Of a stretch of DNA of 64,000 nt, positions 3,739 to 35,177 are shown piece by piece. The position numbers and the translations under genes were made by a program. The first letter of the stretch is position 1. Each line of letters begins with the position of its first letter. Location: positions 1,838,775 through 1,902,774 of the forward strand of contig NZ_OY781091.1 of NCBI RefSeq assembly GCF_963676275.1, read 5' to 3'. The stretch is from an uncultured Cohaesibacter sp. GTDB lineage: Bacteria; Pseudomonadota; Alphaproteobacteria; Rhizobiales; Cohaesibacteraceae. Below the pieces are notes generated by a model. It did no database searches. It saw nothing but the letters and a program-made list of their open reading frames with translations, and was not told the DNA's origin.

Positions 3739-4152
3739 ATGGAAACTGCTGAAATTATTGAAAGAGATGGGGCCTGCCACCTAGCCTGGGCGGGAAATAA
3801 AGCGCCACATGTGGTGATGCAAAATGATTTGAATGCTCTCGCACTGGTTGATGAATTGGTGTCTCGAACATATAGGCTGCCGCGCAGCGCATTGCATGCA
3901 GGAACCCGTTGCAGAAAGAGCGTTGCCTTTGCCCGTCAGGTCGCAATGTATTTGTGCCATGTTTGCCTGAGCTACCCATTGAAAGACATTGCCGAATATT
4001 ATCAGAGGGATCGGACCACCGTCGCTTATGCCTGCCGGGTCGTGGAGGATCGTCGCGAGGAAGAAGAAACCGAATTGTTGATCAACAGCCTCGAAAGCGC
4101 ATTGGAAACAATGATGCTGGTTACGCCGCTAACCCGAATGAGGGCAAGATGA
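3739..4152 (+). CDS. gafY: GafY-like regulator with a DnaA domain IV-type HTH
   Basis: A 137-residue protein whose second half (about residues 55-110) is a DnaA domain-IV-like helix-turn-helix: RKSVAFARQVAMYLCHV followed by LKDIAEYYQRDRTTVAYACR. It lacks the AAA+ ATPase of DnaA, so it is a DNA-binding regulator, not the replication initiator. Its stop overlaps the start of a DUF6456 protein by four bases. A DnaA-type HTH followed by DUF6456 is the domain order of Rhodobacter GafA, the direct GTA activator; in Caulobacter these parts are two proteins, GafY and GafZ (recalled literature). A full GTA cluster lies 16 kb downstream. Family assignment is strong; the GTA role here is inferred. Related genes of this type are widespread in Rhizobiales, so it could have other targets. 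Confidence 0.75.
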   Translation: METAEIIERDGACHLAWAGNKAPHVVMQNDLNALALVDELVSRTYRLPRSALHAGTRCRKSVAFARQVAMYLCHVCLSYPLKDIAEYYQRDRTTVAYACRVVEDRREEEETELLINSLESALETMMLVTPLTRMRAR

Positions 4153-4964
4153 AGAACGAGAATGGAAATCCCTCAAATCCTGACGAGCAGGGACCAGACA
4201 TTGATGAGACGCTATTGGCAGTTGCCAGATCCGCAGGCAAGAGCTTGGATCGTTGGCCGGCTTCTCATATTCGCGAACTCATTCAGCGTGGCTGGCTTCG
4301 CCAAGAAGGGGAGCGGCTGATGCTGACAACCAGCGGAAAGGGCAGATTGCGGCGTTCCAGACTGGAAGAGGAAGCCATCCGTATATCTTCTTGTGATCAT
4401 CCATTACGGGCAAGGCAAGGTGCGCGCGTGTCGAAAGCGAAACACACATATGATGCGCCACAAGGAGAAGCAAGCCCTTTGCAGCAACTGGCAAAACGCA
4501 AGAAAAGTGACGGCAAGCCCTATCTGGGAGCAAGCGAGGTTGAAGCCGGAGAAAGGCTCTATCGCGATTTCGAAAGGGGCCAATTGGTCCGCGCGCTAGG
4601 CATAAACTGGCAGCGTCTTGGGCAACGCGAAGGTGCCATTTCAAAAAATGCCAGAGGTTCAAGGGCCAGGGAAGGGCATAGTGAAGCGGCACTTGATGCA
4701 CAGGATCGGTTCCGCGCCGCAATCAAATATGTCGGCGAAGAATTCGCCGATCCATTGATTGACTTCTGTTGTTTCCTGAAAGGACTGGAGGAGTTGGAGC
4801 GGACGCGAAGCTGGCCGGCACGATCAGCAAAGCTGGTCATGTCGCTGGCGCTGAAAAGGCTGGCTCGATATTATGGTTTGTCCAATGTCGCCAATGGTCC
4901 GGAAAAAAATTCCATGCGCCATTGGGGTACGGAAGACTATCGGCCAGATTTCTCCTCTTCGTAA
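4149..4964 (+). CDS. gafZ: GafZ-like DUF6456 protein, putative GTA anti-terminator
   Basis: A 271-residue protein. The start chosen is the ATG overlapping the gafY stop (ATGA), giving translational coupling; the reading frame extends further upstream but only antisense to sense in gafY. Residues 1-75 resemble a small winged-helix-like segment (IRELIQRGWLRQEGERLMLT); residues 112-245 are a DUF6456 domain with EAGERLYRDFERGQL, DPLIDFCCFLKGLEELER and WPARSAKLVMSLALKRLARYYG. In Caulobacter the homologue GafZ is reported to let RNA polymerase pass terminators inside the GTA cluster; this window's GTA has several. The 60-residue basic linker (about 76-111 and 155-180) is low complexity. Function here is inferred from family and genome context. 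Confidence 0.75.
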   Translation: MKNENGNPSNPDEQGPDIDETLLAVARSAGKSLDRWPASHIRELIQRGWLRQEGERLMLTTSGKGRLRRSRLEEEAIRISSCDHPLRARQGARVSKAKHTYDAPQGEASPLQQLAKRKKSDGKPYLGASEVEAGERLYRDFERGQLVRALGINWQRLGQREGAISKNARGSRAREGHSEAALDAQDRFRAAIKYVGEEFADPLIDFCCFLKGLEELERTRSWPARSAKLVMSLALKRLARYYGLSNVANGPEKNSMRHWGTEDYRPDFSSS

Positions 4965-5041
4965 TGAATGCTGTGATATGGCGCGTAAAATCGGATGCTG
5001 CACCGTCATGAGGCAAAGCATCACGGATGCAACGAAGGCCT

Positions 5042-19846: not shown

Positions 19847-19847
19847 A

Positions 19848-20693: not shown

Positions 20694-21936
20694 ACTGCAC
20701 AGGCTTTTCTATGACTGGGAACTCTGGGCAAGGCCCGACCAACTGCCCCCAGCGGGCAACTGGACCACATGGCTGGTCATGGGGGGGCGCGGAGCGGGCA
20801 AAACCCGCACCGGTGCAGAATGGGTCAAGGCTCTGGTCGAGGGGCGGTCATCCTTCGCAGTAAGGCCGTATGGTCGCATCGCACTGATTGGAGAAACCTT
20901 GCAGGATGCCCGCGACGTGATGGTTGAAGGTGTTTCGGGGCTGTTGGCCATTCATGCCAAACAGGACCGCCCGATTTGGCAACCCTCGCGCCGGAGGCTG
21001 GAATGGCCCAATGGGGCCGTCGCCCAGATCTTTTCCGCCGAGGATCCCGAGAGCCTGCGCGGTCCGCAATTTGATGCGGCATGGGGCGATGAACTGGCGA
21101 AATGGCGGCAGGCCGAAGCGACCTGGGACATGCTGCAATTCGGTTTGCGTCTGGGCCAGCTGCCCCGCCAGATCGTGACAACTACGCCCAAGCCTACGGC
21201 GTTGCTCAAGCGTTTGATGGCCGAACCTTCGACAGCCATCAGCCATGCGCCGACCCGTGCCAATCTGGCCAATCTGGCTCCGGGGTTCCTCGATACCATC
21301 GTGCGCCGTTACGAAGGCTCTCGTCTGGGACGACAGGAGCTTGACGGTGAGCTTATTGAAGACAGGGCCGACGCGCTTTGGAAGCGCGATCAGCTCGACC
21401 GGCTGAGGGTTGATGATCCTCCCGCAACCCTCAGCCGGATTGTGGTCGCCATCGATCCGCCCGCCACATCAGGCAAGAATGCCGATGCTTGCGGATTGAT
21501 TGTTGCCGGAATTGACGGGGACGGACTGTGTTTTATCCTGCGTGACAGCTCGCTTGCCAGTGCAAGCCCCACAGCCTGGGCCAACAAGGCAATCGCGCTT
21601 TACAATCGCTTTGAAGCAGATTGCGTGGTGGCCGAAGTCAATCAGGGCGGCGAGATGGTCACCACCATTCTCGGCAATATCGATGCCACCGTTCCGGTTC
21701 GGCCGGTCCGCGCGACACGCGGCAAATATCTGCGCGCCGAACCCGTCAGCGCTCTTTATGAGCAGGGCAGGGTTCGCCATGTCGGCAACATGGCCGAACT
21801 GGAAGATGAAATGTGTGACTTCGGGCTGGATGGTCTGACGTCCGGTAAAAGTCCTGACAGGCTCGACGCCATGGTCTGGGCCGTGACCCATCTGTGTCTT
21901 GGCGATCGGTCGCAACCGAAAGTTCGGGCAATCTGA
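20638..21936 (+). CDS. GTA large terminase subunit (g2)
   Basis: A 432-residue DNA-packaging motor. Walker A is GGRGAGKT (residues 49-56), Walker B region AAWGDELAKW (147-156), and the C-terminal RNase H-like nuclease begins with VVAIDPPAT (Asp 273) and ends with SPDRLDAMVWAVTHL. This is the terminase-6/GTA large subunit that fills capsids with about 4-5 kb of host DNA in other GTAs. The ATG at 20638 gives the usual family length; the frame runs much further upstream through terS but that part is out-of-frame terS sequence. It overlaps terS by 56 bases. Confidence 0.93.
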   Translation: MGSSKENQAQFLASLSHNELHRLFYDWELWARPDQLPPAGNWTTWLVMGGRGAGKTRTGAEWVKALVEGRSSFAVRPYGRIALIGETLQDARDVMVEGVSGLLAIHAKQDRPIWQPSRRRLEWPNGAVAQIFSAEDPESLRGPQFDAAWGDELAKWRQAEATWDMLQFGLRLGQLPRQIVTTTPKPTALLKRLMAEPSTAISHAPTRANLANLAPGFLDTIVRRYEGSRLGRQELDGELIEDRADALWKRDQLDRLRVDDPPATLSRIVVAIDPPATSGKNADACGLIVAGIDGDGLCFILRDSSLASASPTAWANKAIALYNRFEADCVVAEVNQGGEMVTTILGNIDATVPVRPVRATRGKYLRAEPVSALYEQGRVRHVGNMAELEDEMCDFGLDGLTSGKSPDRLDAMVWAVTHLCLGDRSQPKVRAI

Positions 21937-21963
21937 CATATCAAGAAAGGAAGGAAGAAGCAC

Positions 21964-23220
21964 ATGCTTCGCTGGACCTTGAAAGGGCCGGTGCGCTCGC
22001 GCTCGCCCCAGACGAACTCACAAAAACAATCCCATGCCAATCCGGATCTGGAAGGCAAGGCCTCACGCACGGGGGCATTGATCGCCATGCACCAAACCGG
22101 CCGCCCGCGCTGGACCCCGAGAGATTACGCCGCGCTGGCCATGCAGGGCTATGCCCGCAATCCGATTGTCTATCGCTCGATCAGGATGATCTCGGAAGCG
22201 GCCGCTTCTGCTTCCTTCTATTGCCTCGTGGATGGTGCGCGCCTGAGCGACCATCCTGTGCTTGATCTGTTGCGCCAGCCCAATCCGCGACAGGATGCAG
22301 CCAGCTGGCTTGAAAATCTCTACGGGCATCTGCTGGTTTCCGGCAATGCCTATATCGAGGCGGTATATGGGACTAGCAGCCTGAAGGAGCTGCATTGCCT
22401 GAGACCCGACCGGATGAAGGTCGTTCCCGGCCCCGAAGGGTGGCCCGATGCCTATGATTATACAATTGGCAACAAGTCGGTGCGCTTTCTCCAGAATGAC
22501 GATGCATCGCCTCTGCCGCCCGTTCTGCATATAACGCTGTTTCATCCTCATGACGATCATTATGGTCTCAGCCCTCTTGAAGCAGCCCAAGTCAGTCTTG
22601 ACGTGCATAACGCCGCAGCCAGCTGGAACAAGGCACTGCTCGACAATTCCGCCCGCCCGTCCGGCGCCCTTGTCTATGCCGCCTCAGAGGCAGGGAATCT
22701 GAGCGAAGAGCAGTTCGAGCGCCTCAAGAGGGAACTTGAAGAAGGCTATCAGGGTGCAATGAATGCAGGCCGACCGCTGCTGCTGGAAGGGGGGCTTGAC
22801 TGGAAGAGTATGAGCCTGTCGCCGCGCGACATGGATTTCATCGATGCCAAGAACAGCGCTGCCAGAGAAATCGCTCTTGCATTCGGGGTGCCGCCGATGC
22901 TGCTCGGCATTCCCGGCGATAACACCTATTCCAACTATGCCGAGGCAAACCGTGCCTTCTGGCGGCAAACCGTTCTGCCGCTGGCGAGCCGTTGTCTGCA
23001 AAATCTGGCGCGCTGGTTGTCGCCTGCTTTCAATGAAGCATTCGACCTCAGGATCGACCTTGACCTCGTCACCGCGTTGGCAGGTGAACGCGAAGCGCTC
23101 TGGAACCGCGTCGGCAATGCATCCTTCCTGACGGAAAATGAAAAGCGCATGGCAGTCGGCTACAGCCCGCTCGCAGAACCCGCCAATGAGATGCCGAGCC
23201 GAAAAGAAGAGGGAAAATGA
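21964..23220 (+). CDS. HK97-family portal protein (GTA g3)
   Basis: A 418-residue portal that forms the dodecameric channel at one capsid vertex. Family features include RDYAALAMQGYARNPIVYRS, the clip/stem block FHPHDDHYGLSPLEAAQVSL, and FGVPPMLLGIPGDNTYSNYA near residue 310, followed by FWRQTVLPLASRCLQNLARW. Length fits. It follows terL by 27 bases and is followed at once by the g3.5 gene. Confidence 0.95.
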   Translation: MLRWTLKGPVRSRSPQTNSQKQSHANPDLEGKASRTGALIAMHQTGRPRWTPRDYAALAMQGYARNPIVYRSIRMISEAAASASFYCLVDGARLSDHPVLDLLRQPNPRQDAASWLENLYGHLLVSGNAYIEAVYGTSSLKELHCLRPDRMKVVPGPEGWPDAYDYTIGNKSVRFLQNDDASPLPPVLHITLFHPHDDHYGLSPLEAAQVSLDVHNAAASWNKALLDNSARPSGALVYAASEAGNLSEEQFERLKRELEEGYQGAMNAGRPLLLEGGLDWKSMSLSPRDMDFIDAKNSAAREIALAFGVPPMLLGIPGDNTYSNYAEANRAFWRQTVLPLASRCLQNLARWLSPAFNEAFDLRIDLDLVTALAGEREALWNRVGNASFLTENEKRMAVGYSPLAEPANEMPSRKEEGK

Positions 23221-23221
23221 T

Positions 23222-23401
23222 GTGGCAGATGCTTTGCAGATTTTTGCCTCGAAAGGGGACCTTGCCCATGTGGCTCTCTTCTTGTGGGCTAGTGCCGCCA
23301 GTGGCCTCTTGGTTTGGAGCCTGCGAGAGCAGGCCGCTTCCAACAAGCGCTTTCAGGATTTCGTCGAAGAGATCGCCCGGCTCACCAGTCTGTTTGAGTG
23401 A
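23222..23401 (+). CDS. Small single-helix membrane protein (GTA g3.5-like)
   Basis: A 59-residue protein from a GTG at 23222, which overlaps the portal stop region and has a GAGG ribosome site; the frame is open further upstream only as portal antiframe. One membrane helix (about residues 15-34, HVALFLWASAASGLLVWSL) is followed by a soluble helix ending FVEEIARLTSLFE. A small membrane protein at this position is a constant of GTA clusters (g3.5). Its role is unknown. The longer ATG frame at 23217 in another phase is not family-like and was rejected. Confidence 0.7.
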   Translation: MADALQIFASKGDLAHVALFLWASAASGLLVWSLREQAASNKRFQDFVEEIARLTSLFE

Positions 23402-23561
23402 TCAACCGGATTTCGGTTTATCCGGGGTGGGAAGGGAAAGCCTGAAGCATAAAGAGGTCTTTGCCCGTTTCTCCCGCACCCTCCAGTCCCACATCGGACA
23501 TGAGAGCGTTGCTCGCATCCGCCTTATTTCGACTTCAATGTGAAGAAACAGATGTAAGATC

Positions 23562-24302
23562 ATGAAAAATTTGCATTATCATACCGCTTCAAAAAACTGC
23601 GATATTCACGAGACTGAAAAAAAGGCATTGCCTTCGGCGCTGGAAGCCGTGGGGGATGACGGGCTCTTCGAGGGGTATGCCTGCCTGTTTGGCAAGGAGG
23701 ATCTCGGTCATGATGTCATCCGCTCGGGGGCCTTCTCGAACAGTCTGGGCAAGCGCGGCCTTGATGGCATCAAGCTGCTCTATCAGCATGATCCTGCCCA
23801 ACCCATCGGACAATGGCTGACCATCCGCGAGGATGAAAAGGGGCTGTTCGTCCGCGGCAAGCTGGCAACCGAAGTTGCCAAGGCGCGAGAGATCCTCTCG
23901 ATGATGAAGGCCGGAATACTTGATGGCCTTTCTATCGGCTTTCGCACCATTCGTGGACAGAAGGATGCAAAGAGCGGCATCCGCTATCTTATGGAACTTG
24001 ATTTGTGGGAAATCTCCGTTGTGACATTCCCGATGCAGCCGGACGCACGCATATCCTCGGTCAAGTCCGAGCAGGGCCTCATTGCTTGCCTTCAGCAAGA
24101 TGAGGCACCCTTCAGCAAAAGAGAATTGGAACGCAAGCTCATGCAGGACGCTGGGCTCAGTCGTTCCCAGGCCCGGGCTCTCATGGCCCATGGTCTATCC
24201 GGTCTCAGCGGCAAGCAGGACGCTGCCTTTTTTGAGCCTTCATACGAGCTTTCCAGCCTGCGCCAACTGACCCGAGCCATGCTTCGGGCAGCAAATAACT
24301 AG
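23562..24302 (+). CDS. HK97-family prohead protease (GTA g4)
   Basis: A 246-residue maturation protease. The N-terminal half holds the U35-type fold: FEGYACLFGKEDLGHDVIRS, the LLYQHDPAQPIGQW His block and GILDGLSIGFRTI with the Ser; the C-terminal extension of about 90 residues is basic and ends in SQARALMAHGLSGLSG, as in several Rhizobiales GTAs. It cleaves the capsid N-terminal scaffold during head maturation. It directly precedes the capsid gene. Confidence 0.93.
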   Translation: MKNLHYHTASKNCDIHETEKKALPSALEAVGDDGLFEGYACLFGKEDLGHDVIRSGAFSNSLGKRGLDGIKLLYQHDPAQPIGQWLTIREDEKGLFVRGKLATEVAKAREILSMMKAGILDGLSIGFRTIRGQKDAKSGIRYLMELDLWEISVVTFPMQPDARISSVKSEQGLIACLQQDEAPFSKRELERKLMQDAGLSRSQARALMAHGLSGLSGKQDAAFFEPSYELSSLRQLTRAMLRAANN

Positions 24303-24352
24303 GCTGACTGCTCCATCACACCTTACTCATTTCAAACGAAAAGAGTTATCTC

Positions 24353-25621
24353 ATGAAAGAAATGACCATTCCGTCCCCTGAGACGAAATCCCTTGTCAGC
24401 GGTGAGCTCGGCTCTGCCTTTGATGATTTTCTGGTTTCCTTCGAAGCCTTCAAGCGCGCCAATGATGACCGTCTGGACGAGATCGAAAAGCGCTCTGCCG
24501 ATGTGCTGACCGAGCATAAGGTGGACCGTATTTCCAAGGCTCTGGATGAACAGAAGTCCGCACTTGATAACCTGATCCTCAAGGCTCGCCGTCCTTCTCT
24601 GGCCGGTGATCTGGCCTCAATTCGCCACTCGGCACCCATGTCCATGCGGGCCATGGAACACAAGGCCGCATTTGATCGCTATATCCGCTCTGGTGTGGAG
24701 CAGGACTTGCGCGATCTGGAAGCCAAGGCCATGTCCATCAGCTCCGACCCTGACGGCGGCTATCTGGTGCCTGAGCTGGTTGAGGCTGAAGTGGGCAAGC
24801 GCCTTGCTGCCATTTCTCCCATTCGTGCCATTGCCGATGTTCGGGAGATTTCCGGTTCGACCCTGAAAAAGCCTTTTGCCAAATCCGGCCCGGAAGTCGG
24901 CTGGGTGGGTGAAACGGCGTCTCGTCCCCAGACCAGCGCTTCCTCTCTGGCCGAATTGTCCTACACGGCGATGGAACTCTATGCGATGCCAGCGGCTACG
25001 CCGAGCCTGCTCGAAGATGCCGCCATCAATGTCGATGAATGGATCGCCTCGGAAGTGGAAACCGCCTTTGCCGAGCAGGAAGGGGCAGCCTTCGTCAATG
25101 GTGATGGTGTCAACAAACCGAAGGGCTTCATGGCCGAGACAGTGGTCACAGAAGACAGCTGGGCGTGGGGCAATCTCGGTGCGGTCGTGACCGGCACTGC
25201 CGGTGGGTTCGGATCCACCAATCCGGGCGATCCGCTGATTGAGTTGGTCTATAGCCTCAAGGCAGGTTATCGCCAGAATGCGCAATTCGTGATGAACCGC
25301 ACCACGCAGGCAGAAATCCGCAAGCTCAAGGATAGCGATGGCAATTATCTCTGGCAGCCACCGGCAGCCATTGGTGCCAAGGCATCCTTGCTGAATTATG
25401 CCATCACCGAAGCCGAAGACATGCCGGATATCGATGCCGACGCATGTGCCATTGCCTTTGGTGACTTCAAGCGCGGTTACCTGATTGTCGACCGCCTTGG
25501 CCTCAGCATCCTGCGCGATCCCTATTCCTCCAAACCCTATGTCCTGTTCTATGTCACCAAACGTGTTGGTGGTGGCGTGCAGGATTATGACGCCATCAAG
25601 CTGTTGCAGTTCTCAGCCTGA
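24353..25621 (+). CDS. HK97-fold major capsid protein (GTA g5)
   Basis: A 422-residue major capsid protein. Residues 1-110 form a helical delta/scaffold region (FDDFLVSFEAFKRANDDRLD, DEQKSALDNLILKARRPSLA), followed by the HK97 fold with GGYLVPELVEAEVGKRLAAI, ETASRPQTSASSLAELSYTA, FVNGDGVNKPKGFM and FGDFKRGYLIVDRLGLSILR. It builds the GTA head after cleavage by g4. It is followed by a strong terminator-like hairpin, unusual inside a head-tail operon. Confidence 0.95.
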   Translation: MKEMTIPSPETKSLVSGELGSAFDDFLVSFEAFKRANDDRLDEIEKRSADVLTEHKVDRISKALDEQKSALDNLILKARRPSLAGDLASIRHSAPMSMRAMEHKAAFDRYIRSGVEQDLRDLEAKAMSISSDPDGGYLVPELVEAEVGKRLAAISPIRAIADVREISGSTLKKPFAKSGPEVGWVGETASRPQTSASSLAELSYTAMELYAMPAATPSLLEDAAINVDEWIASEVETAFAEQEGAAFVNGDGVNKPKGFMAETVVTEDSWAWGNLGAVVTGTAGGFGSTNPGDPLIELVYSLKAGYRQNAQFVMNRTTQAEIRKLKDSDGNYLWQPPAAIGAKASLLNYAITEAEDMPDIDADACAIAFGDFKRGYLIVDRLGLSILRDPYSSKPYVLFYVTKRVGGGVQDYDAIKLLQFSA

Positions 25622-25667
25622 TCGATGATCTGACCCCACGGGTGGAGCAAGCTCCACCCCACCTTGC

Positions 25668-25705
25668 GCCTTTGTCGGCTTTCTCCCGCCGGCAAAGGCT
25701 TTTTA
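25668..25705 (+). terminator. Intrinsic terminator after the GTA capsid gene
   Basis: Stem gcctttg (25668-25674) / caaaggc (25693-25699) with inner cggc/gccg pairing, then a T run (25700-25705). A second G/C-rich hairpin (gggtgga / tccaccc, 25640-25659) lacks a T run. Read-through is needed for all tail genes if there is no internal promoter. Confidence 0.82.
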
Positions 25706-25763
25706 TTCATAAAAGCAACGGCATCCAGGGATGTGCAGTTGTTTCATATGCAATGGTATAGCT

Positions 25764-26324
25764 ATGCCTGCGATCCTTTTGACAGCACCGGCCATCGAGC
25801 CGGTCAGCCTTTCCGAAATCAAGGCCTATCTGAAAATCGATCAGGACGCGGAAGACGATCTGCTGCGTGCCTTTATCAGTGCGGCCAGAGTTCATCTCGA
25901 ACATATAACCGGTTGTCACCTGATTACACAAAGCTGGCGGATTCTTCTGGAAGGTCCGTTGGGGGAGACATTCCGTCTGCCTTTGCAACCGGTATCCGAG
26001 CTGCTGGCGCTTCACATTCTCGAAGTCGACGGAACATCAACCGAGATTGATATTGCGGGACTTTCCATCTTCCAGACCGGCAATCCGGCCATCATTGCCA
26101 ATCTCGATGGTTTTCTCCTGTCCTACAGGCAACGCCTTCAGATCGATGTCGAAACCGGCTTTGGCCCCGCTGAGGAAGATGTTCCCGAGCCATTGCGGCT
26201 GGCCATGAAGATGATCGTGGCGGAATGGTATGAGCGGCGCCTTATCGCCGACCCAGCCCAGATCGCCACCCTGAACAAGGCCCTTCAGCCGATGATCGCT
26301 CCCTACAGATCGATCCATCTATAG
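25764..26324 (+). CDS. Head-tail connector/adaptor protein (GTA g6)
   Basis: A 186-residue protein of the phage connector family (HK97 gp6/phiE125 gp8 type). The opening EPVSLSEIKAYLKIDQDAED and LLRAFISAARVHLEHITG are the typical helical core, and RLAMKMIVAEWYERR the C-terminal helix. It forms the ring under the portal. The ATG at 25764 was chosen over 25731 because the family begins near PAILLTAPA. Confidence 0.88.
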   Translation: MPAILLTAPAIEPVSLSEIKAYLKIDQDAEDDLLRAFISAARVHLEHITGCHLITQSWRILLEGPLGETFRLPLQPVSELLALHILEVDGTSTEIDIAGLSIFQTGNPAIIANLDGFLLSYRQRLQIDVETGFGPAEEDVPEPLRLAMKMIVAEWYERRLIADPAQIATLNKALQPMIAPYRSIHL

Positions 26325-26374
26325 ATCGTCTCAAAGGAAACGATCCTGTCATTTCCAAACCAGAGGAGGGTTCC

Positions 26375-26734
26375 TTGACACAATCAGGGCTCGACCCCTT
26401 TCAATTCGATCCGGCAGGCTTGCGCCACCAGATAGCCTTGCTTGTGCCGGTTCTTGACGATGAAGCCCCCTGGCTGGGCGCTACAGATTTCGAAATACTG
26501 GCCGAGGTCTGGGCTGGTGTGGTGGCGAGCGATGCCAGCAACCGCTCTGAAGCAGAACAAAGCGCCAATAGCCAGTTGCTGCGGTTCGTCATTCGCCATC
26601 GCGATGATCTCGAGCAGGTTACTGCGCTGAGTTTCAAGGGAGCGACATATGACTGCCTGAGACATTGGGATCCCGATTGCACGGAACGATGGCTGATGGT
26701 CGAAGCGCGCACCAAATTGGGAGCCTCGGCATGA
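26375..26734 (+). CDS. Head-tail stopper/adaptor (GTA g7-like)
   Basis: A 119-residue protein starting with TTG at 26375 after an AGGAGGG ribosome site. Motifs FDPAGLRHQIALLVPV and EVWAGVVASDASNRSEAEQS are those of phage head-tail adaptor (stopper) proteins, which close the portal channel. It overlaps the next small gene by four bases. Confidence 0.82.
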   Translation: MTQSGLDPFQFDPAGLRHQIALLVPVLDDEAPWLGATDFEILAEVWAGVVASDASNRSEAEQSANSQLLRFVIRHRDDLEQVTALSFKGATYDCLRHWDPDCTERWLMVEARTKLGASA

Positions 26735-26988
26735 GCAATCGCCTCCAAGCGCTGGCCAAGCGCATTCTTTCGGCTCGTCTGGATCAATATGCCGAAACAC
26801 TCGCCAAAACAGCTTCTGCTCAGGGAGTGAACTTGACCGTTACCTCCGGGCTTTCCGGTAATACTGGCAGCCTTCATCTCTCCGGCGAGGGGCTCATACG
26901 AGCGCATTATGGCGATCAGACAACCGCGCCATCCGCAATCGTCGCCAGACTTCTGCAGGATTTGGCTCAAGAGAGGAAGAGAGCATGA
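26731..26988 (+). CDS. Small basic protein between g7 and g8
   Basis: An 85-residue protein starting at the ATG that overlaps the g7 stop (ATGA) and itself overlapping g8 by four bases. It begins NRLQALAKRILSARLDQYAE and has a C-terminal basic tail; the length and position suggest an HK97 gp10-like joining protein fragment, but I cannot confirm a family. Tight overlap on both sides shows it is a real GTA gene. Confidence 0.65.
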   Translation: MSNRLQALAKRILSARLDQYAETLAKTASAQGVNLTVTSGLSGNTGSLHLSGEGLIRAHYGDQTTAPSAIVARLLQDLAQERKRA

Positions 26989-27401
26989 CGGAATTGGCAT
27001 CAAGAGCTCTTGAACAGTCTCTGCTGGATTATCTCAAGAGCGATGCGACCCTGATCGCGCTGCTTGGCGGGCTCAGACTCTATGACGAACCTAGCAGAAA
27101 TGCACGCTTCCCCTATCTGACTGTGATCACCAGCTATTCACGCGACTGGAGTACCGGGACCGAGGTGGGAGAGGAGCATCGCATCATCATCACCGCATGG
27201 ACTGCTTCTGAGGACAAGGCCCGGCAACAGAGCATCTTTGCCCGTCTTCAGGAACTGCTCACCGATCCGGCTCTCGTTCTGGCGGACCATATTCTGGTCA
27301 ATCTGCAAACTGAGCGGATCGAATTGCGCCCTGATCGCAAGAACCATCTGCTGCAAGGTGTCATGCAGATAAGGGCTGTTACCGAAGTACAAACCAGCTG
27401 A
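26985..27401 (+). CDS. Tail terminator, DUF3168 family (GTA g8)
   Basis: A 138-residue protein with the DUF3168 pattern: SRALEQSLLDYLKSDATLIA, LRLYDEPSRNARFPYLTV and EHRIIITAWTASEDKARQQS. It caps the tail tube and joins it to the head. Start overlaps the preceding gene. Confidence 0.88.
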   Translation: MTELASRALEQSLLDYLKSDATLIALLGGLRLYDEPSRNARFPYLTVITSYSRDWSTGTEVGEEHRIIITAWTASEDKARQQSIFARLQELLTDPALVLADHILVNLQTERIELRPDRKNHLLQGVMQIRAVTEVQTS

Positions 27402-27455
27402 AGCGGTGCGCAACAAGGCACGCCGATATCCTTTTGACTCCAAGGAGATAAATTC

Positions 27456-27869
27456 ATGACTGCACAGAAAGGCAAGGACCTTCTGCTCAAAGTACGCAAT
27501 ACAGATGACGACAGTTTTATCACGGTCGCAGGATTGCGTGCCCGTTCGCTCTCTTTCAATGCCGAGAGCGTCGATATCAGCCATGCCGAATCCGACGGCC
27601 GCTGGCGCGAACTGCTGGAAGGGGCTGGCAGCCGCCGCGCCAGTCTTTCGGGCAGTGGTCTGTTCAAGGATGGTGAGAGTGACGAGCGTATCCGGGCTCT
27701 CTTTTTTGACGGAACCATTGCGAGCTGGCAGATCGTCATACCCAATTTCGGCACGTTGGAGGGACGCTTCCAGATAACGGCGCTGGAATATTCCGGTCAG
27801 CATGACAATGAGCTGTCATTTGAGATGGCTCTGGAATCCGCCGGTATTCTGACCTTCACCGCATCCTGA
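27456..27869 (+). CDS. Major tail tube protein (GTA g9, TP901-1-like)
   Basis: A 137-residue protein: QKGKDLLLKVRNTDDDSFIT, SVDISHAESDGRWRELLEGA and ALEYSGQHDNELSFEMALES are the classic phage major tail protein motifs of the TP901-1 family. It polymerises into the GTA tail tube. An AAGGAGAT ribosome site lies 8 bases before the ATG, in keeping with high expression. Confidence 0.93.
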   Translation: MTAQKGKDLLLKVRNTDDDSFITVAGLRARSLSFNAESVDISHAESDGRWRELLEGAGSRRASLSGSGLFKDGESDERIRALFFDGTIASWQIVIPNFGTLEGRFQITALEYSGQHDNELSFEMALESAGILTFTAS

Positions 27870-27882
27870 GGGAGCATGGGCA

Positions 27883-28269
27883 ATGGCGAATAAAAGACGG
27901 GGCGAGATATCGATTTGCCTGAATGACAGGCCCTACAGGCTTTGTCTGACCCTTGCGGCTCTTGCTGAACTTGAAGACAGCATGGAGCTTGATGATATCG
28001 GAGCGCTCGCCGGGCGCTTCTCTGACGGCAAGGTCAGAAGCAAGGATCTCGTAAAAATTCTGGGAACTGCGCTGAGAGCTGGCGGCGCGGATATTTCCGA
28101 TCAGGAAGCGGCTGCCATGCGATGCAAGGGTGGGGCAGTGGCGCTCACGCATGCACTCGTTGAATTGCTGCGCGAAACATTCAACCCCGAAGAACCGGAA
28201 GCGGATGCCTCGTCAACCAGACAGGCGGCAACGCCAGAGCAGGATACTGCTACGGCAAACCCCATTTAG
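27883..28269 (+). CDS. GTA g10 tail assembly protein
   Basis: A 128-residue GTA-family protein with LNDRPYRLCLTLAALAELED and VKILGTALRAGGADISDQEA, the gene transfer agent g10 signature; it is the upstream partner of the g10.1 chaperone, like gpG in lambda. The last 25 residues are low-complexity acidic. Its stop codon sits at the foot of a terminator-like hairpin. Confidence 0.9.
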   Translation: MANKRRGEISICLNDRPYRLCLTLAALAELEDSMELDDIGALAGRFSDGKVRSKDLVKILGTALRAGGADISDQEAAAMRCKGGAVALTHALVELLRETFNPEEPEADASSTRQAATPEQDTATANPI

Positions 28270-28300
28270 GCCGATCTGCTGATAGCGGATCGGCCTTTTT
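28268..28300 (+). terminator. Terminator-like hairpin between g10 and g10.1
   Basis: Stem aggccgatc (28268-28276) / gatcggcct (28288-28296) with inner gct/agc pairing and a short loop, then TTTTT. The g10 stop overlaps its left foot and the TTG start of g10.1 begins in the T run, so transcription termination, translation and start-site use are physically linked here. Confidence 0.75.
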
Positions 28301-28568
28301 GCAGAAACGGTTTCCCTGGCATCTGCTGTTCGCGCTGACGAGCCAACGGCTCGGCTGGTCGCCGCAGACCATTTGGGCTGCAACCCCCAAGGAAATTGTC
28401 ATGGCATTGTTTTTGCCCATTGCGCGAGAGCCGAAAATGAACCGCAAGGATTTTGATCTTCTTTGTGAAGCATTTCCGGATCTCAAAGCTCCGCATGGCC
28501 ATCGCGTCATTGGCACGACTTTTGTGCCTGCAAAGCAAATCAAATTGGAAAGGGAAAGACATGGCTGA
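28299..28568 (+). CDS. Phage tail assembly chaperone (GTA g10.1, TIGR02216-like)
   Basis: An 89-residue protein matching the GTA-type tail chaperone: FPWHLLFALTSQRLGWSP followed by TIWAATPKEIVMALF. The only start compatible with the motif is a TTG at 28299, inside the T run of the preceding hairpin; no independent ribosome site is visible, which suggests reinitiation after g10 (29 bases upstream). The C-terminal 45 residues (MNRKDFDLLCEAFPDLKAPH) extend beyond the usual domain. It overlaps g11 by eight bases. Confidence 0.78.
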   Translation: MQKRFPWHLLFALTSQRLGWSPQTIWAATPKEIVMALFLPIAREPKMNRKDFDLLCEAFPDLKAPHGHRVIGTTFVPAKQIKLERERHG

Positions 28569-29163
28569 TGAAGTCGTAGAGACGGCGGTGGTCAAGGTGG
28601 AAGCGGACATGAAGGCTTTCACAAAGGATCTGTCAGCCGCAAGCAAACAGGCCGAACGCCTAGGTGACAAGGTGTCCGACGCTTTCGAGGATGCGATCTT
28701 GGGTGGCAAGAGCCTTGAAGATATTTTCAGCAATCTGGCTCTGGATCTGAGCAAGAATGCGTTGTCTTCCGGGCTGGAACCGCTCAAGAGCCTTTTGTCG
28801 GGGTCGGTTTCCAGTCTCGCTTCAGGATTGTTTTCGTCGCTGGCATCTTCAAGTAGCTCTGGCCTCTCGTCATTGCTGAGCGGATTGACCCCTTTTGCCA
28901 AGGGTGGCGTGGTTTCTTCTCCCTCTCTTTTCTCCACCGGATCCGGAACCGGATTGATGGGAGAAGCGGGGGCAGAGGCGATTTTGCCACTGCAGCGCGG
29001 ATCGGATGGCAGTCTGGGGGTATCGATGCCCGGAGCGACGGGGCAACCGGTCAGCATCGTAATGAATGTGAGCACCCCGGACGCAAAATCCTTTTCGAAA
29101 TCGGAAAACCAGATTGCCACCAAACTTGCTCGCGCAGTCGGGCGGGGGCGTCGCGGGCTCTGA
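28561..29163 (+). CDS. Short tail tape-measure protein (GTA g11)
   Basis: A 200-residue protein from the ATG at 28561 that overlaps the g10.1 stop. It contains VKVEADMKAFTKDLSAASKQ, FEDAILGGKSLEDIFSNLAL, a hydrophobic serine/leucine-rich middle (about 70-115), and the conserved GGVVSSPSLF and GLMGEAGAEAILPLQRG motifs. Those motifs mark lambda-type tape measures; GTA versions are short, matching short tails. A strong terminator-like hairpin follows. Confidence 0.88.
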   Translation: MADEVVETAVVKVEADMKAFTKDLSAASKQAERLGDKVSDAFEDAILGGKSLEDIFSNLALDLSKNALSSGLEPLKSLLSGSVSSLASGLFSSLASSSSSGLSSLLSGLTPFAKGGVVSSPSLFSTGSGTGLMGEAGAEAILPLQRGSDGSLGVSMPGATGQPVSIVMNVSTPDAKSFSKSENQIATKLARAVGRGRRGL

Positions 29164-29252
29164 TGCTGATCGCAGCCATTGGGTGGGTGAAGGCCGTCTT
29201 AGTCAGTTGATCTGACTTCGCCTTTTGGCTCCGTGCAACGAAGAATGTGCAG

Positions 29253-29285
29253 AGCTGCATTTCCATGCCGAAATGCAGCTTTTTT
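29253..29285 (+). terminator. Intrinsic terminator after the GTA tape-measure gene
   Basis: Perfect 10-bp stem agctgcattt (29253-29262) / aaatgcagct (29271-29280) with an 8-nt loop and six T. It lies between g11 and g12. Confidence 0.88.
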
Positions 29286-29309
29286 CAAATGAATAATCAG
29301 GACAAGTCA

Positions 29310-29936
29310 ATGAATGGATTCCATGAAATACGTTTTCCGCTCGATGTTGGCTTTGGGGCAACCGGAGGCCCCGAAAGACGCACGGACATCGTGACGCTGG
29401 CTTCTGGATTTGAAGAGCGTAACGCCCGCTGGTCGGATTCACGACGCAGTTATGATGCCGGGCTCGGTGTCCGCTCATTTGCTGATTTGCAAAGGGTGCT
29501 GCGTTTCTTCGAAGAACGACGGGGACGCCTTTACGGCTTTCGCTTTCGCGATCCCTTCGATCATGCCTCCTGCAACACCGGAAGCAAAATAGTAGCGACA
29601 GACCAGCTTATTGGCACGGGGGATGGTGAAACAACGGTCTTCGCTCTGAAGAAAACCTATGGTGACGACTTTGCTCCCTACAGCCGCGCGATTGTCAAAC
29701 CCGTTGAGGAGACGGTGATACTCGCTCTGGATGGCGAAGAGACAACAAGCTTCCAAATGGATTGGTCAACAGGGCAAGTGACCTTTGACGAGGCTCCCGA
29801 TGCGGGAACGAGCATCACCGCCGGTTTCCAGTTTGACGTGCCGGTACGCTTTGATACCGACAAGCTGGAATTCTCGATCAGCGCATTTGAAGCCGGAGAC
29901 TTGCCATCCATTCCATTGGTGGAGATCAGACTGTGA
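29310..29936 (+). CDS. Distal tail protein, DUF2460 family (GTA g12)
   Basis: A 208-residue protein from the ATG at 29310: NGFHEIRFPLDVGFGATGGP, WSDSRRSYDAGLGVRSFADL and FFEERRGRLYGFRFRDPFDH are the DUF2460/TIGR02217 signature of the GTA distal tail ring. It overlaps g13 by four bases. Confidence 0.93.
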   Translation: MNGFHEIRFPLDVGFGATGGPERRTDIVTLASGFEERNARWSDSRRSYDAGLGVRSFADLQRVLRFFEERRGRLYGFRFRDPFDHASCNTGSKIVATDQLIGTGDGETTVFALKKTYGDDFAPYSRAIVKPVEETVILALDGEETTSFQMDWSTGQVTFDEAPDAGTSITAGFQFDVPVRFDTDKLEFSISAFEAGDLPSIPLVEIRL

Positions 29937-30826
29937 GAACACTTTCCGATGCATTTGCTACCCATCTGGCGCAAGGAGTGACAACGCTTGCCACCTGCTG
30001 GATCTTGAAACGCGCCGATGGTGTGAGTTTTGGTTTCACCGATCATGACCGTGCAATTGACCTTAACGGTGTGAGCTGTGAACCAAATACCGGCTTTACC
30101 GGATCAGAAATCCGCCAGAGTGACAGCTTTGCCAGCGATGATCAGGATATTTCGGGCGTCCTTGCTTCGGACCGTATCAAGGAAACGGACCTGACAAGCG
30201 GGCGATATGATGCCGCGACCATTGAAACCTGGTGTGTCAATTGGCAAGACCCGGACCAGTCGCTGCTGTTGCGCACGGGCTATTTGGGGGAAATCAAACG
30301 TGACAAGCAGAATTTTCAGGCCGAAATCCGTTCTCTGTCCATCGACATGGAGCAGGATCAGGGACGGGTTTACCAATATCGTTGTGATGCCAATCTGGGC
30401 GACAGTCGCTGCGGACTGGATCTGGAGACCGCAGGCCTGACCTGTGAAGGATCTGTGAGCGCCATAAAATCGAAGAATTGGCTCGCAGTCTCCTTGACCA
30501 GCCGACCGGAAGCGGGCCGATTGGCTATGGGGCGGCTGGAAATGACGAGTGGGGCAGCCGAAGGAATGGCCTTCGATATTCTGTCCCATCAGTCATTGAG
30601 CCAGACAGACGAAATCGAACTGTGGCTGCCCTTGCATGAGGAAATTGCTGAAGGAGACGCAGTCAAGGTTTCGGTTGGTTGCGACAAGTGCTTTTCAACC
30701 TGCCGCAAGATTTTTGCCAATCAGCTGAACTTTCGTGGCTTCCCCCATATGCCGGGCAATGACTTTCTGCTCACCTATCCCGAGCTTACGCAAAATTGCG
30801 ATGGCTCGGCGTTGTTCGAGGACTAG
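29933..30826 (+). CDS. Tail hub N-terminal part, DUF2163 family (GTA g13)
   Basis: A 297-residue protein starting at GTG 29933 overlapping the g12 stop (GTGA). Motifs TTLATCWILKRADGVSFGFT, CDANLGDSRCGLDLE and CDKCFSTCRKIFANQLNFRG, the last with a cysteine cluster (about residues 248-255) that in the Rhodobacter GTA structure can bind an Fe-S cluster (recalled). It is the hub base of the tail tip. Confidence 0.92.
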   Translation: MRTLSDAFATHLAQGVTTLATCWILKRADGVSFGFTDHDRAIDLNGVSCEPNTGFTGSEIRQSDSFASDDQDISGVLASDRIKETDLTSGRYDAATIETWCVNWQDPDQSLLLRTGYLGEIKRDKQNFQAEIRSLSIDMEQDQGRVYQYRCDANLGDSRCGLDLETAGLTCEGSVSAIKSKNWLAVSLTSRPEAGRLAMGRLEMTSGAAEGMAFDILSHQSLSQTDEIELWLPLHEEIAEGDAVKVSVGCDKCFSTCRKIFANQLNFRGFPHMPGNDFLLTYPELTQNCDGSALFED

Positions 30827-30829
30827 GGC

Positions 30830-31297
30830 ATGGATATTGCACACAAAAAAGTTGTTTCCAGCGAAATGATAATCTCTGAGGCCCTTGGTTGGATCGGAAC
30901 GCCTTATAAGCATCAGGCCTGTTGCAAAGGCGTCGGATGCGATTGTCTGGGCCTGATCCGCGGTGTTTACAGCGCCTTCTGGCCCGAGCCAGAACAGCCT
31001 CCATCCTATAATCCGGATTGGGCTGACGCTAATGGGCAGGAAAATCTGGTTGATGCGGCAATGCGTCACCTTCTGCCCGTTGATCTGAAGGATCGCCAGC
31101 CTGCCAACATACTTCTGTTTCGCTATAAAAGAGGCTTTCCTGCCAAGCATGCCGGCATCCTGATTGATGATGCCCGCTTTTTGCACGCTCAGGCGGGAGG
31201 GACGGCAAGTCTGGTTTTCCTCAGCCCTTGGTGGCTGCGGCATCTCTCCCATGTTTTCGCCTTTCCATCACTTCCCCGCATAGTATCAACGGAATAA
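30830..31297 (+). CDS. NlpC/P60-type tail peptidase (GTA g14)
   Basis: A 155-residue cysteine peptidase of the GTA NlpC/P60 family (TIGR02219). The catalytic Cys is C39 in GCDCLGLIRGVY and the catalytic His H107 in KHAGILIDD. It is carried in the tail tip and is thought to open peptidoglycan during DNA entry. Spacing to g13 is three bases. Confidence 0.93.
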   Translation: MDIAHKKVVSSEMIISEALGWIGTPYKHQACCKGVGCDCLGLIRGVYSAFWPEPEQPPSYNPDWADANGQENLVDAAMRHLLPVDLKDRQPANILLFRYKRGFPAKHAGILIDDARFLHAQAGGTASLVFLSPWWLRHLSHVFAFPSLPRIVSTE

Positions 31298-31304
31298 TAA
31301 ACCC

Positions 31305-34300
31305 ATGACTACACTTGTCTTGAAAACAGCTGGCAGCGTCATCGGCGGGGCGTTGTTCGGGCCGTTGGGGGCCGCAGTCGGTGGCGCACTTGGTGCTGTC
31401 GGTGGCTACTATGTCGATCAGCAGCTGTTTGGCAGCTCCCAATCTGTCGAGGGCTCCAGCCTTTCCGATCTGACAGTTCAAACCTCAACCGAAGGCACCG
31501 CCATTCCACGCCTCTATGGGCGCGCGCGCCTGACCGGGCAGGTTATCTGGTCGACCAATCTGGTGGAGGAAGTTACCACGCGCAAACAGCGCACAGGGGC
31601 TTCAAAAGGTGGATCAGGCTCATCAACCACGACAACGACTTATAGCTATTTTGCCAATTTTGCGGTTGGGCTGTGTGAAGGCGAAATCGCTTATATCGGT
31701 CGCGTCTGGGCCAATGGCTCGATCCTCGACATGGAGGACATCACCTATCGGGTTTATTGCGGAACGGAGGATCAAACACCCGATAGCTTGATCGAGGCCA
31801 AGCAGGGCACAGGCAAAGCACCAGCCTATCGTGGTCTGGCCTATGTGGTTTTTGAAGATCTGCCGCTTGAGGATTTTGGTAACCGGATTCCGCAATTGTC
31901 CTTTGAAGTGGTGCGCCCGATCGGGCGCCTGGAAAAGCAGATCCAATCAGTCGTCATGATCCCCGGAGCAACGGAATTCGGCTATGATAGCACCGAGATT
32001 TCACGCAAGGACAGCGAAGGAGAGTGGAGTTCGGAAAACAGGCACTCCTATGAGTCGGGAACCGATTTTGAAGTCTCGCTGGATCACCTTATCTCATTGT
32101 GCCCGAATTTGAGCACGATTGCGCTCGTTGTCTCATGGTTCGGCTCAGACCTGCGCGCCGGTGAATGCTCCATTCGTCCCAAGACTGACAATAGCGAAAA
32201 GGTGACGACCGGGGATAGCTGGGCCGTGGCAGGACTGGCGCGGTCTGAGGCGCAGTGCGTCACTTTGCTGGACGGACGGGCGTCATATGGAGGCACCCCC
32301 TCGGACGCTTCTGTTCTCAGGGCCATTGCAGCCATACGGGAGCGGGGGCTGAAGGTGGTCCTTTATCCATTCATCATGATGGATATCGCATCCGGCAATG
32401 CCTTGCCTGATCCGTATGGAGAAGAAGAGCAGGCCGCTTTCCCATGGCGCGGGCGGATCACCTGTTATCCGGGGCCAGATGAAGAGGATACTGCGGATCT
32501 GTCCTCTGACGCCGCCTCTCAGGTGAACAGTTTCTACACCGGAGGGGACTGGAGTTATCGCCGTTTCATCATGCATTATGCGCAATTGGCAAGCGATGCT
32601 GGCGGGGTCGATGGCTTTCTTCTTGGATCTGAATTGCGCGGCATGACCTGTCTGCGCGATGCATCAGGTGACTATCCCTTTGTGACCTGTCTGCAAAGCC
32701 TCGCTTCAGAGGTCCGAGCGCTTGTTGGAGATGCAACAAAACTGACCTATGGGGCGGACTGGAGCGAATATTTCGGTCATCACCCGCAAGATGGTTCGGT
32801 GACTTTTCATCTCGATCCCCTGTGGTCAGACAGCAATATCGATGCAATCGGCATCGACAATTACATGCCGCAATCCGACTGGCGGGCTGGTGAGGATCAT
32901 CTCGATGCCAACCTTGCCGATACCGGCTTGGAAGCGGACTATCTTCAGGCCAATATCGCCGGAGGTGAGGGCTTTGACTGGTATTATGCTTCTGATGAGG
33001 ATCGGGACAGCCAGACAAGGACAGCCATAACCGATGGATTGGCAGGAAAACCCTGGGTTTTCCGCTATAAGGATCTGGTCAGTTGGTGGTCCAATGAGCA
33101 CTATAATCGCGATGTTTCAGGCGAAAGTGATACGCCGACAAGTTGGGAGCCATGTTCCAAACCCATCTGGTTTACCGAGATCGGTTGTCCCGCGGTGCAT
33201 TTGGGGCCTAATCAGCCGAATGTCTTTCCCGACGCCAAGTCATCGGAAAGCGCTTTACCATATCACTCCTCGGGAGCCCGCTGCGATGCGGCCCAGCGTG
33301 CCATGCTCACTGCCAGCCTCGACTATTGGCAAAGCGGTGATGAGAGCCTAAATCCGACATCGCCAATTTATGACGATAGAATGGTTGCCGACGATCAGAT
33401 CTACCTCTGGGCATGGGATGCAAGACCGTTTCCCGCATTTCCCCTATCCAGTGACATATGGTCGGATGGTGATGCCTGGCACACCGGACATTGGCTCAAT
33501 GGTCGTCTCGGAAATGCACCTCTGCAGGATATCGTGCGCACGGTGATGAGTGATTTCGGTCTTGATGCGCCACTATTCACGTCAGTTCCTGCGGTCATCG
33601 ATGGTTTTGTTATCGATCAGCGCACGTCGGTTCGTTCGGCCTTGGAAAGCCTTTGCGATGCATTCAATATCTCTTTTGTCGCAAGCCAGAACCGGTTGCT
33701 GTTCGAGTTGCAGGGACGCAGGACTGTCGCTGAAATCGAAGAAGGTCAACTGGTTGATGAAGAGGATGAAGCTCTGCTGAGCAAGCAACTCGATCCTTGG
33801 GAAGAAGAGCCTTCCAGCGTGACCTTCTCATTCAACGAGTTGTTTCAGGACTACCGCCAGTCGGTGGCCCGTTATGACCAGCCGAGCAGCCGCACCCGGC
33901 AGGAGAGTTCCAAATCGCTTTCGGTTATTTCTTCCGAACCCATCATGGTTGATGCCGCCAGAAACTGGCTGCGTCAACGCAATTACTCCCGTCATACGAT
34001 CAAGTTCAATCTCCCATTGTCAATGCTTTCACTTGAGGCGGGAGATCTGGTTACCTTGCAGGAAGGAGAATATGACAAAAGCTACCGCATTGATGAAATC
34101 GAAGATGGAACAATGCGAGAGGTCTCGGCGAGCCTTATAGCTCCGCGCAATAGCGCGCCATTGGCACAAACAACCCGATTGGTGAAATCTGCATTGCCGC
34201 AGGTTGTGAGGCCCGTTTGCTTCGCTATGGATTTGCCATTGATCCCAAGTAAATCCGAATATCCTCACGCCCCTTATCTGGCGAGCTATTCTTCGCCATG

Positions 34301-35177
34301 GCCTGGAAGTTTTGAGCTGTATCAGGGTAGCAGTGATGTTGGTTTTGTGCATCGGCAAAGTCTGGATGTTCCTGCAATCATGGGGACGTTGCAAACCGAA
34401 CTTGCCGCCATCGAGTGCTACAGCTGGGACAGAGGTTCCTCGCTGGAAGTCAAGCTCAACAAAGGCGATCTGTCATCAATTGAAAAAAGCAGTCTTCTGT
34501 CCGGATCCAATGCTGCAGCCGTGCAAACGGAAAATGGCGAATGGGAGATCATCCAGTTTGCCAATGCCGAACTGATTGGAACCAATCTTTGGCGACTGAG
34601 CCTGCTATTGCGAGGGCAATTGGGAACCGAAGAAGCTGCTCAGAATGGGGCTCTGGCTGGTGCAAGATTTGTTCTTCTTGATGAGGCAATCGTGCCGCTA
34701 AAAGTGGATGGCGGACAACTGCAAAAGTCCTTGCCATTTCGTGTTGTCGCCAATGGAGCGGCCATTTCTGACGCCAACAATATCGATATTTCGATTGATA
34801 TTGTCGGGCGCGGATTGAGGCCGCTGGCACCTGTCCATCTCAAGGCTGTCCGAAATAAAGAAGATGCCAGCCTGCAATTTAGCTGGATCAGGCGAGACCG
34901 TCTGGAAGCCGATAGCTGGGTTGATAGCACCATTCCGCTGAGTGAGGCCGAAGAACTCTATCAAATTAGGATTGTTGATCCTCAGTCGGGAAGCACCTTG
35001 CGGAGCGAAGACGTGAGCGCTCCGTACTGGCTCTACTCTCTCGAAGAACAGGCCAATGATGGAATATCACAAATTTCCAAAGTGCAAATCGAAATAGAAC
35101 AGGTGAGCCGCCGATATGGAAGCGGCGCAACGCTGAGCCGACAGGTCTTGCTCGACAGTCTGCGCATTCAAGCCTGA
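31305..35177 (+). CDS. Megatron tail-tip protein (GTA g15)
   Basis: A 1290-residue protein that completes the tail baseplate and host contact. It opens with a glycine-rich amphipathic/membrane-like segment (about residues 10-40, GGALFGPLGAAVGGALGAVG), then YGRARLTGQVIWSTNLVEEV, a TIM-barrel-like domain (about 240-580) with FLLGSELRGMTCLRD and SWWSNEHYNRDVSGE, the phage-tail domain around 700-800, and a C-terminal fold ending in DSLRIQA. Length and order agree with the GTA TIM-barrel-like host-specificity family. Ten bases separate it from g14. Confidence 0.93.
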   Translation: MTTLVLKTAGSVIGGALFGPLGAAVGGALGAVGGYYVDQQLFGSSQSVEGSSLSDLTVQTSTEGTAIPRLYGRARLTGQVIWSTNLVEEVTTRKQRTGASKGGSGSSTTTTTYSYFANFAVGLCEGEIAYIGRVWANGSILDMEDITYRVYCGTEDQTPDSLIEAKQGTGKAPAYRGLAYVVFEDLPLEDFGNRIPQLSFEVVRPIGRLEKQIQSVVMIPGATEFGYDSTEISRKDSEGEWSSENRHSYESGTDFEVSLDHLISLCPNLSTIALVVSWFGSDLRAGECSIRPKTDNSEKVTTGDSWAVAGLARSEAQCVTLLDGRASYGGTPSDASVLRAIAAIRERGLKVVLYPFIMMDIASGNALPDPYGEEEQAAFPWRGRITCYPGPDEEDTADLSSDAASQVNSFYTGGDWSYRRFIMHYAQLASDAGGVDGFLLGSELRGMTCLRDASGDYPFVTCLQSLASEVRALVGDATKLTYGADWSEYFGHHPQDGSVTFHLDPLWSDSNIDAIGIDNYMPQSDWRAGEDHLDANLADTGLEADYLQANIAGGEGFDWYYASDEDRDSQTRTAITDGLAGKPWVFRYKDLVSWWSNEHYNRDVSGESDTPTSWEPCSKPIWFTEIGCPAVHLGPNQPNVFPDAKSSESALPYHSSGARCDAAQRAMLTASLDYWQSGDESLNPTSPIYDDRMVADDQIYLWAWDARPFPAFPLSSDIWSDGDAWHTGHWLNGRLGNAPLQDIVRTVMSDFGLDAPLFTSVPAVIDGFVIDQRTSVRSALESLCDAFNISFVASQNRLLFELQGRRTVAEIEEGQLVDEEDEALLSKQLDPWEEEPSSVTFSFNELFQDYRQSVARYDQPSSRTRQESSKSLSVISSEPIMVDAARNWLRQRNYSRHTIKFNLPLSMLSLEAGDLVTLQEGEYDKSYRIDEIEDGTMREVSASLIAPRNSAPLAQTTRLVKSALPQVVRPVCFAMDLPLIPSKSEYPHAPYLASYSSPWPGSFELYQGSSDVGFVHRQSLDVPAIMGTLQTELAAIECYSWDRGSSLEVKLNKGDLSSIEKSSLLSGSNAAAVQTENGEWEIIQFANAELIGTNLWRLSLLLRGQLGTEEAAQNGALAGARFVLLDEAIVPLKVDGGQLQKSLPFRVVANGAAISDANNIDISIDIVGRGLRPLAPVHLKAVRNKEDASLQFSWIRRDRLEADSWVDSTIPLSEAEELYQIRIVDPQSGSTLRSEDVSAPYWLYSLEEQANDGISQISKVQIEIEQVSRRYGSGATLSRQVLLDSLRIQA

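Follow-up and report, generated by a model that had tools for sequence, protein, structure and literature searches.

Is anti-termination by GafZ local to Caulobacter, or is it a general alphaproteobacterial way of silencing a lethal domesticated virus? The question is raised by a 64,000-nucleotide stretch of DNA from an uncultured Cohaesibacter sp. (contig NZ_OY781091.1, positions 1,838,775 to 1,902,774), called the window throughout, in which a pair of regulator genes, gafY and gafZ, lies upstream of a gene transfer agent (GTA) cluster. In Caulobacter the GafZ element is located between −35 and −10, the start codon of gtaT lies at +251, read-through depends on GafZ, and mutating half of the GafZ element abolishes both GafZ enrichment and GTA production (PMC11150451). 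An earlier note on the window had proposed that the Caulobacter circuit of GafY, IHF and GafZ works here as well, and that expression of the capsid, chaperone and tail-tip genes depends on GafZ-like read-through. This interpretation is partly supported; it appears to hold in outline and is narrowed to an intrinsic terminator in the leader as the conserved gate. GafZ-dependent read-through of this gate is probably the best explanation of the locus, with a probability of about 0.7. The elements concerned are the following.

3739..4152, + strand: gafY, DnaA domain IV-type helix-turn-helix (HTH) activator (Bac_DnaA_C PF08299, E 1.1e-15, Pfam)
4149..4964, + strand: gafZ, DUF6456 protein, predicted anti-terminator (PF20057, E 4e-40, Pfam)
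19823..19843, + strand: conserved AT-rich element before the promoter, possible GafY or IHF site (leader alignment)
19848..19876, + strand: GTA promoter with −35 TTGACC, a spacer with CGAACGG (predicted GafZ element) and −10 TACATA at 19871-19876 (leader alignment)
19883..19924, + strand: conserved initial transcribed region whose +1 is predicted at 19883 (leader alignment)
19966..19995, + strand: leader intrinsic terminator, stem 19966-19988 plus T7, score 46.8
20115..35177, + strand: GTA cluster with gp1, terL, portal, protease, capsid, gp6-gp14 and megatron (Pfam/NCBIfam/PHROG)

In the proposed circuit GafY, probably together with IHF, would activate the sigma-70-type promoter at 19848-19876, and GafZ would be recruited at the element in the −35/−10 spacer and stay with RNA polymerase, as in Caulobacter. 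The modified polymerase would then read through the leader terminator, which spans about 84 to 113 nucleotides (nt) past the predicted start with 120 nt left to gp1, and would cross weaker, lineage-specific terminators within the cluster. Without GafZ, leaky transcription would end in the leader and the lethal particle operon would stay silent. The analysis itself shows the genes and their order, the promoter module and the leader terminator, together with how well these are conserved; GafZ binding at this locus, its dependence on GafY and IHF and the read-through itself are what we infer.

Terminators in the leader and within the cluster

Terminators were scored by a d'Aubenton-Carafa-type measure of hairpin plus T-run. 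Between 19000 and 36000 the best coding-strand scores were 46.8 for the leader (19966-19988), 42.6 (28269-28295), 41.9 (25668-25699) and 27.4 (29254-29279), followed by 8.7 as the next score on this strand and 11.2 as the best on the other. When the region was dinucleotide-shuffled 20 times, one shuffle gave a match above 27.4 (31.0), and the whole window held 13 matches above 25, of which four are in the GTA. The scoring thus ranks at the top of the coding strand the same four sites, one in the leader and three inside the cluster, that the earlier note had called terminators. The internal ones are these.

25668..25705, + strand: internal terminator between capsid and gp6, score 41.9
28268..28300, + strand: internal hairpin between gp10 and TAC with T-run, score 42.6
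29253..29285, + strand: internal terminator between gp11 and gp12, score 27.4

Conservation was followed in the window and 15 relatives, of which 14 belong to its genus and one (G018) to its family. The leader terminator was found in all 16 clusters with a score of at least 36, a level compared with which just 2 of 1600 shuffled leaders reached even 30, and the hairpin sequences of L074-L079 are clearly different. The leader thus carries a GC-rich hairpin with a T-run that stands above shuffles and is conserved. The internal sites fared unequally. The capsid/gp6 site scored above 12 in 12/16 clusters, the gp11/gp12 site above 20 in 8/16, with differing stem sequences, and the gp10/TAC site above 12 in 2/16, its stem being kept in most relatives and its T-run not. 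In L065 gp6 begins 5 nt past the end of the capsid gene, so the capsid/gp6 terminator is absent there, a natural deletion of the spacer. Over all 16 clusters, 47 matches above 12 fell on the coding strand vs 18 on the other. Among these predicted terminators the one in the leader is the conserved part, and the internal ones are lineage-specific. The dependence on read-through proposed at the outset is supported by comparison at the leader (16/16) and is not supported as stated for the internal hairpins, which are not equal parts (12/16, 8/16 and 2/16).

The spacer between gp11 and gp12 is longer in the more distant relatives L073-L078 and L079, where parts of it are conserved and an inverted repeat is present, for example TTGATCAAGATCAA. 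This repeat resembles an FNR/FixK box, and the spacer of these relatives is a possible candidate for an internal promoter; an Rfam search of it in L073, L075, L078 and L079 gave no match.

Alternatives to the proposed GafZ-relieved leader gate

The leader hairpin could merely terminate the ycgN-type gene at 19058-19756, with the working GTA promoter downstream of the hairpin, in which case no anti-termination would be needed. That gene is on the same strand and has its end at 19756, the T-run and gp1 are 120 nt apart in the window, and other strong terminator scores in the window lie outside the GTA cluster, several of them right after gene ends. Against this, a promoter-like module conserved across the class sits upstream of the hairpin, and the space downstream is shorter in other leaders: in L078, from the window's own family, 28 nt remain between hairpin and gp1, and in 16 of the 17 leaders with a terminator outside the family (the exception is L051) the gap to the first plausible start of gp1 is about 7-53 nt. 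Distances this short cannot accommodate a second promoter, which is the best argument that polymerase starting at the conserved promoter has to cross the terminator. The ycgN explanation is improbable. Hardly better placed, and likewise unlikely, is a real leader terminator that is relieved without GafZ, by a put-like RNA element in the first transcribed bases, a ligand or simply strong GafY-driven initiation. The initial transcribed region is indeed strongly conserved, and over its first ~42 nt the transcript has a fold that beats shuffles in some relatives (ten tested, z as low as −5.45). In the window itself this fold is no better than chance, however (z −0.33), and the 5′ arm is invariant, so that the leader-start fold was given little weight; neither the window nor any of four relatives reached the gathering score of an Rfam family, and in Caulobacter it is GafZ for which anti-termination was shown (PMC11150451).

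For the internal hairpins the balance is different. It is nearly an even matter, falling just short of it, whether they adjust dose or the ends of transcripts, with extra capsid as one example, instead of serving as GafZ checkpoints. They stand behind the genes for capsid and tape measure and differ between species, the gp10/TAC stem is kept without its T-run, and L065 does without the capsid/gp6 spacer; on the other side, all three have strong terminator scores in the window. This explanation concerns the internal sites only and is compatible with GafZ-dependent read-through at the leader.

Promoter module and regulators

The family leader alignment displays one module, consisting of the AT-rich element, TTGACC, the CGAACGG spacer, the −10 and a highly conserved stretch around the predicted start. 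The promoter pattern has one exact match in the genome, the GTA promoter itself, and four others with 3 mismatches, not above the reversed control. For comparison outside the family, sites of the form TTGA(C/T/A)-N16-18-TA were examined in 51 GTA-type loci (L121 left out, here and in the spacer-matrix scan below), of which 43 have DUF6456 and 8 (L023-L026, L028, L124, L125 and L131) come from DUF6456-negative genomes. ACG(G/C), for which the Cohaesibacter set is sufficient as a source (ACGG, with ACGC in L074/L075), occurred in the spacer of 16/33 leader sites vs 8/270 sites elsewhere in the same loci (Fisher 3e-12), and such leader sites were present in none of the eight DUF6456-negative loci vs 16 of the 43 others. 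In 25 promoters aligned after choice by eye, the start A is almost invariant and a TC is conserved about 5 nt on. The ACGG element, placed where the GafZ site lies in Caulobacter, is a predicted GafZ site.

The 21-nt AT-rich motif has its sole exact match in the GTA leader, and further GafY targets by this motif were rejected, the four other matches having 3 mismatches and roughly equalling the reversed control (3). In several relatives the AT-rich element (window ~19800-19843) resembles a tandem repeat of TACAAYTTTAA, its two copies spaced by about 22 bp, and gafYZ promoters also contain TACAAC or GTTGTA; TACAAYTTTAA/TACAAC is a possible candidate for a GafY motif. In the underlying alignment of gafY upstream regions the start of L005 was set too far upstream. 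IHF alpha and beta are each represented by one protein above cut-off, and no IHF or GafY binding sites could be assigned.

The reading frames of gafY and gafZ share 4 bases, ATGA, and with the two Pfam matches this bears out the earlier description of a DnaA-HTH gene overlapping a DUF6456 gene at 3.7-5.0 kb. In the 5.03 Mb genome, a single contig, the only DUF6456 match is gafZ. The pair is preceded by mucR (2481-2894, ROS_MUCR) and followed by sufE (5042-5470, opposite strand), and the order mucR-gafY-gafZ-sufE is the split-GafA arrangement of Hyphomicrobiales, in which gafA is split and mostly preceded by a small DnaA-like gene, with sufE downstream and mucR or an HTH gene upstream (PMC9638019). 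GafZ homologues have been counted at 759, with an adjacent GafY in 494 (PMC9632790). On both tests of membership, domain and neighbourhood assignments place the gafYZ pair in the known split GafA/GafYZ type, and since the gene order has already been described the regulator is not new. In L013 the DUF6456 frame (gafZ of G011) is just 172 aa, its N-terminal half being absent or out of frame. No DUF6456 relatives on viral contigs were confirmed in one scan.

Upstream of gafY lies a further, tentative element.

3653..3664, strand not assigned: GGAATTTATTCC, inverted repeat before gafY, resembling GGAA-N4-TTCC

The DNA bound by Caulobacter RogA holds GGAA-N4-TTCC repeats (PMC9632790). Upstream of gafY this pattern, which may point to repression of gafYZ by a RogA-like protein, was found in 6/16 family members and in 1/49 other upstream regions (locus L148, without a match, omitted), and a class-wide operator was ruled out by the latter count. 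No RogA was identified in the searches made. The S24 protein of L081 was considered for this role and rejected, as it is present in 7/20 family genomes and missing from most genomes with gafYZ.

In all 16 family genomes with both, gafZ lies 15.8-20.0 kb upstream of the portal gene on the same strand. The distance between regulator and cluster had earlier been thought unusually short. Among 192 genomes of the class, the window's own included, 16 had both DUF6456 and GTA_TIM; in 11 of these the two were on one contig, 10 of the 11 pairs lay within 72 kb and 3 were closer than the 27.7 kb of the window. Linkage is common and the short distance is not special, so this claim was not upheld.

The cluster itself was as first described, a full RcGTA-type set from 20.1 kb, with terminase, portal, protease, capsid, tail genes and megatron in RcGTA-type order. 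Large terminase through megatron have family matches in Pfam or NCBIfam. For gp1, with its start ATG at 20115, the small-terminase match is weak (PHROG, E 9e-5), and for the tape measure the RcGTA_tape match reaches 157 of 220 bits, under the NCBIfam cut-off. An RcGTA-type agent would produce particles with host DNA. By the portal protein the closest named relatives are Cohaesibacter marisflavi and C. haloalkalitolerans (83%). A frame at 23217-23543 after the portal gene has no Pfam or PHROG match and a tblastn match (34-66% identity) in 14/15 relatives. Directly before the GTA lies the YcgN-family cysteine cluster gene (19058-19756); CDGC-motif frames akin to YcgN precede the GTA in L019, L021 and L026, and the gene seems to have been a neighbour of the GTA for long, in distant relatives too. 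Just downstream of the cluster, on the same strand, genes for a response regulator and a histidine kinase form a pair (36443-38517).

Reach across the class and known systems

Leaders outside the family were drawn from a named set of 45 scanned loci, of which 5 had no terL match and 2 no leader (38 usable), and from a class sample of 20 fetched loci (14 usable). Hairpins far upstream in L023 (−954) and L053 (−878, −641) were not counted, and that of L051 was counted though no promoter-like site is nearby. A terminator just before gp1 was found in 15/38 leaders of the named set, namely eleven Rhodobacterales-type loci (L044 being titled only Alphaproteobacteria), L045-L047 from two genomes, and L022, and in 2/14 of the class sample (L132, L137). 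An intrinsic leader terminator as a universal feature was ruled out by these counts. In the named set it was present in 15/33 usable loci with DUF6456 and in 0/5 without. In 10/11 of the Rhodobacterales-type loci the distance from the start of TTGAC to that of the hairpin is 55-60 nt. All 11 Agrobacterium/Rhizobium loci are without the terminator and have terL ~3 kb or more from the portal gene; these are possibly no standard GTAs. The DUF6456 protein of Sulfitobacter (L061/L088) has an HTH fused at its N-terminus and is read as GafA on the grounds of an HTH_38 match of 20 bits, below the cut-off of 27, and of PMC9638019. Strong terminator-like hairpins were also observed near the terL start (L037, L060, L061, L137) and between terL and portal (L044, L048, L052, L060, L132), in Rhodobacterales-type GTA clusters and one of Hyphomicrobiales order.

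Several results weigh against the leader gate and its extension to the class. Only 17 of 52 usable GTA-type leaders outside the family have the terminator, and 28 of the 43 DUF6456-carrying loci in the 51-locus set lack it or were not resolved. The ACG(G/C) test was not blind, because several outside leaders had been seen beforehand and the loci are related. The blind spacer-matrix scan of the 51 loci was weak, with a single match at p<0.01 directly behind TTGAC (L122); coding-DNA matches in DUF6456-negative loci scored equally well, and L023, L025, L026, L028 and L051 scored like real-looking sites. The Caulobacter palindrome GCGCCCG-CTGGCGC fits ACGG just loosely, and the terminator mapped in Caulobacter is a GC-rich repeat after gtaT, whereas the one here is intrinsic and in the leader. 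A single-sequence structure prediction of GafZ had a predicted local distance difference test (pLDDT) value of 43, too poor for a fold search, and the sequence comparison of GafZ with the PDB gave two matches only (E 0.35 and 0.65). For the terminator calls themselves, a simpler consensus scan found 21 sites vs 17.7 expected, no excess over shuffles; its sites included the capsid hairpin and, in shortened form, the gp10/TAC hairpin, and did not include the leader and gp11/gp12 hairpins.

The wider claim is put forward tentatively, as one that is somewhat less likely true than false. GafZ and the C-terminal half of GafA may be class-wide, promoter-loaded, Q-like GTA anti-terminators, loaded by one inherited module of TTGAC, ACG(G/C), −10, start A and TC; in Rhodobacterales and part of Hyphomicrobiales an intrinsic terminator at about +20 to +100 would then be the main off-switch of particle production, also in GafA-type GTAs, for which GafA is at present described as an activator. 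The conserved leader terminator together with the promoter module makes the generality of anti-termination directly testable.

Anti-termination of the lambda Q type involves a promoter-proximal sigma-dependent pause; at this place the window shows just a conserved initial transcribed region. Lambda Q and AlpA are alike in having a loading element within the promoter and a terminator shortly past the start (PMC11150451), and unlike in that no sequence likeness was found. Anti-termination in the Bartonella BaGTA, a chimeric GTA of diverse phage origin, is known here by a title cited in PMC13236601. Beyond the Caulobacter work no leader terminator in GTAs was named in titles or abstract openings among the matches listed. 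GafA of Rhodobacter capsulatus is similar in that its DUF6456 C-terminal part binds around −10/−35 of the GTA promoter, and differs as a single fused protein described as acting via the omega subunit (PMC9638019, PMC6363796); the words 'terminator' and 'hairpin' are absent from the main texts of these two papers, and in PMC11150451 it is said, with nothing further, that GafA might have unrecognised anti-termination activity. The GafY/GafZ/IHF system of Caulobacter crescentus is alike in its separate gafY and gafZ, an element between −35 and −10, an untranslated leader of about 230-250 nt and terminators ahead of structural genes. Of the circuit proposed at the outset, the split pair, the promoter element, both IHF subunits and the leader terminator in 16/16 clusters agree with this system, as far as sequence can tell. 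The circuit is thus a known one, novel here in the type and place of its terminator, and its extension to GafA-type GTAs is testable.

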